Of a DNA stretch of 32,312 nucleotides, positions 16,936 through 21,726 are shown piece after piece. Position numbers and translations under genes: made by a program. This DNA is from an uncultured bacterium (GTDB taxonomy: Bacteria; Patescibacteriota; Minisyncoccia; Moranbacterales; GWC2-37-73), in assembly GCA_903837175.1 (NCBI GenBank), contig CAILTR010000090.1:1-32312 (forward strand), given 5' to 3'. Each line of letters begins with the position of its first letter. The stretch's first letter is position 1. The notes under the pieces are model-generated. The model worked only from the letters and a program-made list of their open reading frames with translations, ran no database searches and was not told the DNA's origin.

Positions 16936-16964
16936 AGTATAGCAAGGATTTTGGGGGCTGTCAA
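16936..16964 (-). promoter_or_regulatory. Sigma70-type promoter for the GT4 gene/operon
   Basis: Minus strand TTGACA-(17 nt)-TATACT, with TGC immediately upstream of the -10 hexamer (extended -10). Confidence 0.8.
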
Positions 16965-17557: not shown

Positions 17558-18352
17558 TCACTGAAACCCGAAATGTTTCTTAACAATTGCGGTTTTAATC
17601 GCATTTGCTTGAACTTCGCTCATTAAATCAAATCGGAGCTCACCTTTCGAGTTGAACTGGAGATTCTGGAATGTACTGAATAGTGACCGGTTCGCCTGGT
17701 TGCGGTCTGTGAATCTTGCGATATTACCATCATCACGAACAAACAGAACGCTTCCGTCTACCTGATAGGTATACGAAAAATTGCGACCATTGATTTTGGC
17801 GACAAAACAGTCCGGCTGACTGGCATTAACTGTTGCCTCAATCACCTTTTCAGTTGTCTTTTCCGGCACCGCCTTTATATCCTTTTTGAGGAGCGAGACG
17901 ATAGCCACAACAGCCAAGGCCACAACAACTGTTATGCCAATAAGCAACCAGACAAGCATTCCGCCGAAAGATGACGGAACCGAATCAACTTTCGCACTCA
18001 ACTTTGCGAACTCACCTTTTTTACCAGTGAGGTTTTCATCGAGTGTGGCAACATTGTCATTTACGATGCGGATTGCATCGTTGACATCCGACTCACGTGC
18101 TGTTTTTTCCTCAGCTCTTTTCTTCTCCAAAGCAGTTGCCTGTCTGGAAAATTCAGCGCCGATTTGTTTTAGCGTCGGGCCTGCATACTTTGCAGGTGCC
18201 GGTGCGATAACGACCGGCTTGGTAGGCGTAGCGGATTTAGTTGCAGGAGTCTGAACCCCAGCAACCACCTGATCTCCTACTACCTCAAACGCCTGCGATG
18301 CAACTGGCATCGCAAACATCAAAGCAATTAAAAAACCTAAAAAACTTTTCAT
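17558..18352 (-). CDS. Secreted/membrane protein: signal peptide, coiled coil, one TM, soluble C-terminal domain
   Basis: MKSFLGFLIALMFAMPVASQAFE signal peptide; GGMLVWLLIGITVVVALAVVAIVSLL TM; SD GGAGGGAAAA-ATG. Confidence 0.75.
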   Translation of the reverse strand: MKSFLGFLIALMFAMPVASQAFEVVGDQVVAGVQTPATKSATPTKPVVIAPAPAKYAGPTLKQIGAEFSRQATALEKKRAEEKTARESDVNDAIRIVNDNVATLDENLTGKKGEFAKLSAKVDSVPSSFGGMLVWLLIGITVVVALAVVAIVSLLKKDIKAVPEKTTEKVIEATVNASQPDCFVAKINGRNFSYTYQVDGSVLFVRDDGNIARFTDRNQANRSLFSTFQNLQFNSKGELRFDLMSEVQANAIKTAIVKKHFGFQ

Positions 18353-18424: not shown

Positions 18425-19681
18425 TTACTTTTTCCTGCTGGCAGGAACAAAGTCGGAACCCCAGTGCTCGACTCCATACTTTTTCGCATGGACCTGAGCC
18501 TCGTGAGCCTTTCCTTGTGCCTGCAGGACTGTCGCCTGCAGAATTATCGCTCTTTTGTAGAGCTTTAAAGATTCGACTGCACGTTTCCCAACGCGCGTAT
18601 CCGAACCCTTTTCGTAATTCTTCAGGGCCCAATCCAGGTCTTTCTCAGCAGCTCTGAGATACTTTTGATCCCTTGTGCAGGCGTACAACTCAATGTTGCA
18701 CTCTGCACTTGGAACGCGATAACTCAGGTTGTCCGCACTAAAGAAATGACAACCCGCGATTTTTTGCTGCCACATCGCGAGGTCCGCAAAGACCTCACTC
18801 AAGTCGCCGCAATCGTTGCAAGGCTGCTTTTCAACAACTGGCCGAGGTCGTGCTTCAATATGCAACACCATATAAGCAACGCCTGCGCTGCCATATTTGA
18901 TGTTTTTCCCATTAGAAACCCCGCTACCCGCTCCAAGAACTGCGCCCAGATCACACCCCAGTAATTTGGATACTATTCCATTAAGCGAAAAACCGCTTGA
19001 ACCAGATAAAAATCTGGATTGGAATGATTGATCCATTTTCACGATGTGAGTGCTACCAAAGTGCATAGCATTTAGAGCCGTGTATGCCTGCAGATGAAGA
19101 GGTAAAACCGGGTGGTTTTTGTTGAACTCGGCATCGGGAATTAAAAACCCGGCCAATGTTGACTGGTTTACCATTTCAGGTCTGAATTCATCCGGACTCA
19201 TGACGGTCACTGAGCTTGTTGGAGAAAACCTTTTTACGATAATCGGATTTGGTTTAATCCGGTTACAGATTTCATCCCATTTTTCAGCACCATTGGTTTC
19301 CTGCATTACTGCAATCATGGTGTTGATTCCCTCGGTGGTCCAGGTGACTGAACCTGCCAAGTCGAGATTGAATTCTGTGTTCAAATGTCCGTAATCGCCA
19401 TATGCGACGGGTAAATTTCCTGGCTGGAAATTCTGCCCCATTGATGGTAGCTGCTGACGCTCAGTGTAATTGAGCGTTGAGCTGGCGTTGCCGCCTGTTG
19501 CCGTTGCATTGCCACCGGTAGCCGTCGACGTTGCCGTCGAAGTCGCGGTGACGTTGTTGGTATTGCTACTGGTGTTTTTATTAATAGTAATATCATCATT
19601 ATCTGCATGCGCAACGTTTGCAGTACCACACGCCAACAACAATACAGTCATCAGCGTCCCAATCATTTTAAGCGTTTTCAT
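18425..19681 (-). CDS. Secreted protein with N-terminal ATGGNA-repeat module and TPR-like C-terminal helices
   Basis: Signal peptide MKTLKMIGTLMTVLLLACGTANVAHA; DDITINKNTSSNTNNVTATSTATSTATGGNATATGGNA; C-terminal helical region AAEKDLDWALKNYEKGSDTRVGKRAVESLKLYKRAIILQATVLQAQGKAHEAQ. Confidence 0.75.
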   Translation of the reverse strand: MKTLKMIGTLMTVLLLACGTANVAHADNDDITINKNTSSNTNNVTATSTATSTATGGNATATGGNASSTLNYTERQQLPSMGQNFQPGNLPVAYGDYGHLNTEFNLDLAGSVTWTTEGINTMIAVMQETNGAEKWDEICNRIKPNPIIVKRFSPTSSVTVMSPDEFRPEMVNQSTLAGFLIPDAEFNKNHPVLPLHLQAYTALNAMHFGSTHIVKMDQSFQSRFLSGSSGFSLNGIVSKLLGCDLGAVLGAGSGVSNGKNIKYGSAGVAYMVLHIEARPRPVVEKQPCNDCGDLSEVFADLAMWQQKIAGCHFFSADNLSYRVPSAECNIELYACTRDQKYLRAAEKDLDWALKNYEKGSDTRVGKRAVESLKLYKRAIILQATVLQAQGKAHEAQVHAKKYGVEHWGSDFVPASRKK

Positions 19682-19858
19682 TATCTTCTCCGTTATGTAT
19701 TGTTGTTATTGTTGTTTTATTTAAAATCCTAATTCTGTTTTCAAAATTACTTATCTTATCTAAACTTTTTCGGCGTTCATTTCTTCTCCACTTTTTCATG
19801 AAATGAAACAAAGACGCCAATTCAAATCTAGATATAAACCCAATTTCCAGAACTATAT

Positions 19859-19887
19859 AGCGTAGCAGATAATTTCATTTTTGTCAA
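19859..19887 (-). promoter_or_regulatory. Sigma70-type promoter for the 418-aa/264-aa gene pair
   Basis: Minus strand TTGACA-(17 nt)-TACGCT with TGC immediately upstream of the -10. Confidence 0.65.
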
Positions 19888-19891
19888 TACC

Positions 19892-19963
19892 CCAGTCAGA
19901 TTTATAAACTGACGGGGTAAGCTATAGCCAAAATCAGCTTTGTAGAGCTGATTTTTGGGGGTA
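19892..19963. terminator. Two tandem stem-loops downstream of the sortase gene
   Basis: CCCCAGTCAG-ATTTATAAA-CTGACGGGG, then AAAATCAGCT-TTGTAG-AGCTGATTTT; each followed on plus by G(4-5)TAAG. Confidence 0.5.
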
Positions 19964-20014
19964 AGACATTTAATTTGGTAGATGTTAGATTTTAGAATAC
20001 TTTATTTTGTTATT

Positions 20015-20137
20015 GTGTCATTCCGAGTGCAGTGAATCCGACCATAGGGAGGAAGAACGCAATCGAGGAATCTGAGCCCAGATCTTTCGACTTCATTTCT
20101 CCCGCTTTGGGCGGGAGAAATTTCGCTCAAGATGACA
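20015..20137. repeat. Interspersed repeat TGTCATTCCGAG...CTCAAGATGACA with internal 10-bp stem hairpin
   Basis: Ends are inverted (TGTCAT...GATGACA); internal TTTCTCCCGC-TTTGG-GCGGGAGAAA flanked by TTC on both sides. Confidence 0.7.
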
Positions 20138-20165
20138 ATCTAAAATCTAATCCTCAATATTTTTT

Positions 20166-21023
20166 TTATTTCACCAATTCAGCTTTAACAATAAGTCTCT
20201 TTAAATTCGTTCCAATTGGCCAACAAGTCGTCAGGGTCAGCGTTGGGGTTGGGCTGTCGGCAAAGATCCTTTCGTCGTCAGGCGTAGTGGTAAATTTTTC
20301 GGTAATCTTATATTGATAATTAATAATCCGGCCGTTTTTTTGCACAGTCTTAACCGTTACTAAATCGCCGATTTGCAAATTGTTCAAGTCTTTAAAGATA
20401 TGGTTATATCCGCCCTTGGCCCAAATATAATTACTAGAATGTCCGGAAACAATCATATTTCCGACTTGCCCAGGAGCGGCCGTTTTCATAAAATGCGCTA
20501 GCCCATTTTCCAAGTCTTTGAGCATGTTAGCTTCCACGTCAGTCTTTGACCAAACCATTGGCGCGTCCACGCCAAGTTTTTCAATTTTAATGTAAACGGT
20601 CGTCATCGCCTCCCCTTTTGAATCTGGGTCATAACCGTTCGTAATTTCAGCTTTATCGGAAAAAATATCTCCATCAGTGTCAGCGTTGTTTGGATCGGTG
20701 CCATGAATATACTCGAGATAATTTGGCAAGCCATCGCGATCTGGGTCGCCATCATAAAGGTCTTTCCCCGTTAGCTTATTAATTTTAGCCCAAGCTTGAA
20801 AATCCGCGAGGCTAATTTTATCTTGTCCAGCTCTCTTTTGAAGTTCTTCATTATTTACAATTACGTCTTGCACTGCCTCAGGCGAAGTTGCTTCTCTTGG
20901 AGCGGGATGGATATCTAAAATATTAACGAAATAATAAGCGCCAAAAAACACAGCCAAAAAAAGGCTGGCTAGGAGCCCAACCTTTTTAAGTTGAAATTTT
21001 AAATTGTCAGATAAAAAAGACAT
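20166..21023 (-). CDS. Sortase with Ca-binding (thrombospondin type 3/dockerin-like) insert
   Basis: TM; DGDPDRDGLPNYLEYIHGTDPNNADTDGDIFSDKAEITNGYDPDS; catalytic VSGHSS (His), TLTTCWP (Cys), NLKRLIV (Arg). Confidence 0.9.
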   Translation of the reverse strand: MSFLSDNLKFQLKKVGLLASLFLAVFFGAYYFVNILDIHPAPREATSPEAVQDVIVNNEELQKRAGQDKISLADFQAWAKINKLTGKDLYDGDPDRDGLPNYLEYIHGTDPNNADTDGDIFSDKAEITNGYDPDSKGEAMTTVYIKIEKLGVDAPMVWSKTDVEANMLKDLENGLAHFMKTAAPGQVGNMIVSGHSSNYIWAKGGYNHIFKDLNNLQIGDLVTVKTVQKNGRIINYQYKITEKFTTTPDDERIFADSPTPTLTLTTCWPIGTNLKRLIVKAELVK

Positions 21024-21042
21024 TGTTTTAAAATTCAGGAAG

Positions 21043-21642
21043 TTATTTTGTCTTCACAAAATATTTTTTTACAAGCAGTCCAGCAGCAACAAGGGCAACG
21101 ACAACTAATGCGATAAGTCCAACCATTCCGCTTCCCGTAGCTGGCAAGCGTCGTTTGACAACAACTTTTTTGTGATTCTTATCGTAAGTATATTTTTTAT
21201 CATTATCTTTTTTATACTCTTTATCCTTTTTGTCTTCATCATGACTCTTATCAGTATCAACGGTTATTTTGGTTGATGATGAAGATTCTTGTTTTTGACT
21301 AACAGCTGTACTGGTTCCACTAGAAGCAATGGCACTACCGCCAGTAGCAGTTGCGCTACCTCCTGTAGCGGTTGTAGTTCCGCCTCCGGTTGTGTGTCCA
21401 CAGTTTGAACAATAGCCTCCACAACTTGAGCCTGAACATGACCCGCCACCAACAGTTGCGCTTCCACCCATAGCTATCGCATTGCCTCCTGTTGCGATTG
21501 CAGTCGAGGTTGCGCTAACGCTTACATTATTAACATTAGTACTAGAGTTACTATTTCGAATTACAATGTCAGCCGAAGCGGTTTTCACTGAAAACAGCAT
21601 AGTTACCAACATAATTACTAGCACGGCGATTTTCTTGTTCAT
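21043..21642 (-). CDS. LPXTG-anchored surface protein, sortase substrate
   Basis: Signal peptide; ATGGNA-type repeats; Cys-rich CSGSSCGGYCSNCGH; C-terminal RRLPATGSG + hydrophobic segment + KKYFVKTK. Sortase starts 19 nt downstream. Confidence 0.88.
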   Translation of the reverse strand: MNKKIAVLVIMLVTMLFSVKTASADIVIRNSNSSTNVNNVSVSATSTAIATGGNAIAMGGSATVGGGSCSGSSCGGYCSNCGHTTGGGTTTATGGSATATGGSAIASSGTSTAVSQKQESSSSTKITVDTDKSHDEDKKDKEYKKDNDKKYTYDKNHKKVVVKRRLPATGSGMVGLIALVVVALVAAGLLVKKYFVKTK

Positions 21643-21697: not shown

Positions 21698-21726
21698 AGG
21701 CTAGCACAGAAGTGATTTCTTGTCAA
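21698..21726 (-). promoter_or_regulatory. Sigma70-type promoter for the LPXTG-sortase operon
   Basis: Minus strand TTGACA-(17 nt)-TAGCCT with TGC upstream of the -10. Confidence 0.6.

Follow-up and report, generated by a model that had tools for sequence, protein, structure and literature searches.

In the window (the whole stretch of DNA analysed, 32,312 nucleotides), a sortase gene is flanked by the genes of two secreted proteins, a 199-aa LPXTG surface protein and a 418-aa protein, and the short tags that these two proteins share change together across species, as if obliged to fit. The module common to both proteins, proposed in an earlier note on this DNA, comprises about 40 residues with 58% identity over 38 aligned positions, and the alignment of the two tags in the window stands at z = 12.2 against composition-preserving shuffles. 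As judged by eye, both tags begin directly after the signal peptide, as had been claimed, and a second copy of the motif is indeed present within the LPXTG protein (Table 1). When the tag of the 418-aa protein was compared with its entire own assembly, these two proteins were the only matches. All open reading frames quoted in the note are present, and its quotes and coordinates are right.

Table 1. Features of the sortase locus, in window coordinates, with the basis of each assignment.
Feature	Position	Strand	Basis
264-aa membrane protein	17558..18352	-	downstream of the 418-aa partner; conserved neighbour, no covariation with the tags
418-aa secreted partner	18425..19681	-	ORF; AF2 model; without sorting signal
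Tag of the partner, DNDDITINKNTSSNTNNVTATSTATSTATGGNATATGGNASSTLNY	19466..19603	-	mature N-terminus of the 418-aa partner; alignment to the LPXTG tag
Sortase	20166..21023	-	Pfam Sortase 2.9e-24; TSP3_bac 4.3e-6
199-aa LPXTG surface protein	21043..21642	-	ORF; homologues adjoin sortase in relatives
Sorting signal (LPATG, hydrophobic helix, basic tail)	21043..21147	-	sequence; conserved in homologue alignment
Second tag-like repeat in the LPXTG protein, TATGGSATATGGSA	21331..21372	-	sequence
Tag of the LPXTG protein, DIVIRNSNSSTNVNNVSVSATSTAIATGGNAIAMGGSAT	21454..21570	-	mature N-terminus of the LPXTG protein; aligns to the 418-aa tag; covariation

The minus-strand genes of the window run from ClpC, a DUF5656 membrane protein and an HtrA-type protease through the LPXTG protein, the sortase, the 418-aa protein and a 264-aa membrane protein to a glycosyltransferase, beyond which more envelope genes follow, likewise on the minus strand. 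The assembly (1.37 Mb, 120 contigs, 96% complete) looks like a CPR-type genome; the bacteria of this group have small genomes and are probably symbiotic. Membership of the sortase family is evident from the Pfam Sortase score (85.7 bits versus 26.6) and from its GHSS, TTCWP and KRL motifs, with the conserved Cys, His and Arg of the catalytic domain in place; the enzyme also has an N-terminal membrane segment and TSP3 repeats of the calcium-binding type. Its best NCBIfam match is a class D sortase (3.5e-18), which lies below the subfamily cut-off, and the NCBIfam models place it in neither class D (65.7 bits versus 165) nor class E (60.9 bits versus 160). The gap between the sortase and 418-aa genes holds a REP-like palindromic repeat (window 20010–20150), with 16 matches in its own assembly, itself included, and a minus-strand folding z of -3.4.

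The 199-aa protein consists, in order, of signal peptide, tag, Cys motif, second tag-like repeat, polar stalk and sorting signal. By inspection it has what a sortase substrate needs, namely the signal peptide and an LPATG-hydrophobic-KKYFVKTK ending, and the sorting signal is conserved across 25 aligned homologues. The profile matches are marginal, at 0.016 for the NCBIfam LPXTG_anchor model, just under its cut-off (15.8 bits versus 15.9), and at 0.019 for Pfam Gram_pos_anchor. In agreement with the note, LPATG was found in this protein alone of the pair. A Cys motif resembling SCSSCG follows the tag (window 21400–21440) in many LPXTG proteins of this locus, where it may form a disulfide or bind a metal.

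The 418-aa partner is built from a signal peptide, the tag, an alpha/beta domain (about residues 110–275) and a helical, TPR-like C-terminal domain (about 290–400), and AlphaFold2 (AF2) models this body, with both domains, confidently. Apart from stray weak matches, no Pfam family was found for the body in any of 24 members, and the Pfam and NCBIfam scans assigned it no family either. Foldseek of the model against the PDB gave no significant match, with weak TPR-like matches to the helical C-terminal domain, and a profile search of PDB sequences returned chance matches only. The 418-aa protein has a candidate lipobox (LLAC) within its signal peptide in genomes G000 and G001 only (window 19628–19681; L066:11801–13063); the lipobox is clearer in the partners of family f11, described below. 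The downstream 264-aa protein has a signal peptide, a coiled-coil-like region, a transmembrane helix and a C-terminal domain. Genes of its type adjoin those of the 418-aa type even where there is no sortase (window 17558–18352; L062:13062–13976, L131:7028–7801, L132:8837–9856), and by eye some members contain a LysM-like segment.

The coupling of the two tagged proteins was followed across 22 syntenic loci in a single order, drawn from two of its families (14 of f1 and 8 of f7), in a design chosen after the pattern had been noticed by eye in the first loci. For each locus, the mature LPXTG protein was cut to its first 45, 60 or 75 residues and set against the same stretch of the 418-aa-type neighbour, with signal-peptide ends assigned by rule and by eye; all pairs were scored by Smith-Waterman alignment, row and column effects were removed, and partners were permuted. 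The tag itself varies strongly among genomes, with TATGGNA, QSQSQ and N/T-rich forms. With 60-residue tags, the mean score was 108.7 within loci versus 55.8 across loci, and a protein's own partner ranked first in 15/22. The permutation test on these tags gave z = 11.0 and p = 2e-5, the floor of the test; since the loci share ancestry, such z-scores overstate independence, for which a permutation restricted to genera (p = 2.4e-4) and a partial Mantel test of tag-tag distances given sortase distance (r = 0.57, p = 5e-5) correct partly.

The signal is confined to the tag. Along the chain z runs 9.0, 9.5, 5.6, 5.4 and 4.4, then 0.5 beyond residue 60, so that matching is limited to about the first 50–60 mature residues. 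The controls gave z = -1.4 for the remainder of the proteins, 1.7 for the signal peptides, and -0.2 and -0.3 for the mature N-terminus of the 264-aa-type neighbour. Two of the 22 loci are mismatched, namely G037, with its own partner at rank 15, and G042, with its own at rank 22 and an LPXTG protein that carries no tag. For G009, G117 and G119, the LPXTG tags of several other loci fit equally well, since all are Q-rich. Within genus g14, G024 and G124 differ in concert, the tags being Q-rich in one and ATGG-rich in the other.

A third family shows the same matching in a different arrangement. In f11 (G034, G039, G068 and G056), and in G123 of f7, the neighbour of the LPXTG protein is a different protein of about 205–245 aa, mostly lipobox-bearing, whose body is unrelated to the 418-aa type and whose matching tag sits at the C-terminus. 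The actual pairing was the best among all 120 permutations, in what is a small test (n = 5). Within genus g24, G034 and G068 have similar partner bodies and similar LPXTG bodies, and both tags differ in concert, S/A-rich in one genome and N/T-rich in the other. A secretion element placed after the signal peptide was rejected as an explanation of the tag, given its C-terminal position in this family.

The distribution of the genes agrees with the coupling. The LPXTG query matched 27/142 genomes and adjoins the sortase in 25, the two others being G128, where the match lies at a contig end, and G123, in which a sortase of the window's type was not found. In the latter genome, a 418-aa-type protein (L058:7838–9127) and the pair of LPXTG protein and C-terminally tagged lipoprotein (L084:7620–8237) lie on different contigs. 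In f1, the window's own family, the sortase and the 418-aa-type protein co-occur in 15 genomes and are both absent in 4 (G002, G010, G013, G014). The window's sortase type is confined to this order in a class-wide sample. Another order (f41) also has a distant protein of the 418-aa type, next to a LysM-bearing one, but no sortase or LPXTG neighbour gene and no matched tag were seen there; such partners, lacking a matched tag and a sortase alike, would fit the docking idea developed below. The earlier note had considered that its motif might be random low-complexity sequence in unrelated proteins with no link to sortases. That is not what was found: the matches adjoin the sortase and the tags covary within loci, which strongly supports one module coupling the LPXTG protein and the secreted protein.

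One further argument, that the two genes have similar promoters, holds literally and carries little weight. Both have a TTGACA-N17-TAnnCT site upstream (19859–19887 for the 418-aa gene and 21698–21726 for the LPXTG gene), with an equal alignment in 3/500 shuffles. The same form recurs upstream of the glycosyltransferase gene (16936–16964) and looks like an ordinary sigma-70, general promoter; thus, promoter similarity was rejected as evidence for coupling.

As to structure, the tags show strong period-2 alternation, with lag-2 identity at z = 25.9 in LPXTG tags and 13.6 in partner tags; identity at lags 1 and 3 is below expectation on the LPXTG side, and most tags open with an alternating hydrophobic stretch (h-x-h). 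This pattern is that of two-faced beta-strands, from which we infer that the tags probably form beta structure. AF2 leaves the tags at pLDDT below 50 in the models of both proteins; in that of the LPXTG protein, strands of low confidence appear in two segments close to the two copies of the tag, a hint of beta structure. The two sides are alike yet not interchangeable, given their different use of Trp and of the GG-x-A/T positions. Thus, polar-Trp-polar motifs occur in 5/21 partner tags, all five Q-rich, and Trp occurs in 0/27 LPXTG tags; the GG-x-A/T positions mostly hold Ser, Asn or Thr on the LPXTG side versus Asn or Asp on the partner side. These preferences hint that the fit may be heterotypic.

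We propose that the tags are complementary, beta-forming docking elements that probably hold the secreted partner on a sortase-anchored stalk. The sortase would link the LPXTG protein covalently to the wall, with its mature N-terminal tag displayed on a low-complexity or collagen-like stalk. The secreted partner would bring the matching tag, and the two would associate as alternating beta-strands, probably in an amyloid-like or beta-solenoid stack, by which the partner's folded body would be kept at the cell surface with no sorting signal of its own. Tags would then diverge between lineages and yet match within a genome because they must fit. Direct contact between the tags and surface retention of the partner, in line with the recruitment that the earlier note had suggested, are what we infer from the covariation, and direct binding is its simplest reading.

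The main rival is a shared third factor, such as a dedicated chaperone, a wall polymer, a glycosyltransferase or a receptor, which would recognise both tags, so that each tracks the factor rather than the other. It predicts identical covariation; furthermore, the S/T/N-rich tags could accept glycans, and genes for glycosyltransferases are present nearby. Such a factor, however, would need a specificity for just two proteins, the tag being unique to them in the assembly; the mature N-terminus of the downstream membrane protein does not covary; and the Q/S flavours match too, although they are poorer glycan acceptors than the T/N flavours. On balance, we consider a third factor unlikely, if still a serious competitor to direct binding.

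It is less probable still that the tags are bulk low-complexity spacers whose likeness within a genome reflects a lineage-wide compositional preference. The tags are of low complexity and predicted to be unstructured, and composition alone does yield a within-locus excess (z about 4). The order-sensitive signal is nevertheless far above this, with a median z of 11 against composition-preserving shuffles, and no excess is seen elsewhere in the two proteins. Permutation within genera and the tests of residue order largely refute the spacer explanation.

Copying between neighbouring genes makes a different prediction at the DNA level. At identical aligned residues the same codon is used in 195/487 cases (0.40), versus an expectation of 0.376 given the codon usage of both tags, and nucleotide identity of the tags within a locus is 43–66% (21 loci with an alignable tag). 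With codon agreement at chance level, synonymous positions are near saturation and the likeness appears to be kept at the protein level; selection acting on the two proteins seems to maintain the match. A recent copying of the tag, by duplication or gene conversion and with no functional matching, was rejected on these figures and, with tags at opposite termini in the third family, is very improbable, even if the genes are neighbours, the tags look homologous and LPXTG paralogues within one locus have very similar tags. New tags may arise by old conversion events followed by selection.

Docking of the proposed kind would have parallels in known systems. In the fungal HET-S/NWD2 pair and in bacterial BELL/NLR pairs with BASS motifs, adjacent genes encode unrelated bodies with a short matched terminal motif, of which several families exist (PMC7889193, PMC8086366). 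A matched terminal motif in two adjacent gene products is likewise present here. Those systems have NLR and cell-death-type effector bodies and motif families defined by profile HMMs, whereas here both proteins are secreted, one with a sorting signal, and the tags are longer, of lower complexity and lineage-specific. Pfam and NCBIfam detected no NLR or BELL/HeLo-type domain in either protein, and since such bodies are absent we do not claim BASS/HET-s membership. By its sequence signature, the pair resembles these matched-motif systems, in a setting that is new for them, outside the cell and linked to a sortase.

The collagen-like LPXTG adhesins Scl1/Scl2 offer a likeness in the stalk. In congeners, the locus encodes LPXTG proteins whose tag and sorting signal are joined by a collagen-like GXY stalk (L066:10631–11416, L067:12615–13619, L068:7460–8296, L069:88–990), with matches to Scl models, the third giving 1.6e-23 and 83 bits with SclB, for which the cut-off is 325; GXY repeats are absent from the window's 199-aa protein. 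Here, the matches stay below family cut-offs, a matched N-terminal tag replaces the Scl head domain, and the partner has a gene of its own. In curli, surface-bound and secreted subunits (CsgB and CsgA) share beta-forming repeats; here, by contrast, the tag alone is shared, the bodies are unrelated and anchoring is by sortase, and no curlin match was found at E up to 1 in Pfam or at E up to 0.1 in NCBIfam. In cohesin-dockerin and similar systems, secreted proteins are held on a surface-anchored scaffold by matched folded domains that come from two different families, whereas here both halves are alike and of low complexity. In searches of the open-access journal literature, the titles and abstracts listed mentioned no sortase pair of CPR/Patescibacteria and no co-evolving low-complexity LPXTG tag system. 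The matched tags suggest a so far undescribed way to plug proteins onto the cell surface.

Stretches of low complexity in surface proteins tend to be written off as spacers. In these loci they bear a clear, order-specific, within-genome matching signal, which suggests that sequences this simple recognise one another specifically in the extracellular space. Some two dozen pairs that have diverged in nature, among them congeners that differ in their tags and tags at opposite termini, make self-recognition by low-complexity sequence directly testable. More tentatively, and with less than even confidence, we envisage an evolvable extracellular plug-and-socket code, in which beta tags of low complexity, particular to each lineage and carried at one terminus or the other, would dock unrelated bodies on a sortase-anchored scaffold and the pair would be exchangeable as a unit. 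Such tags could make surface assembly specific to close kin. If true, the tags would offer a mechanism to display proteins that lack a sorting signal, and a way to approach the function of the cell surface in these bacteria, which have small genomes and are largely uncultured.
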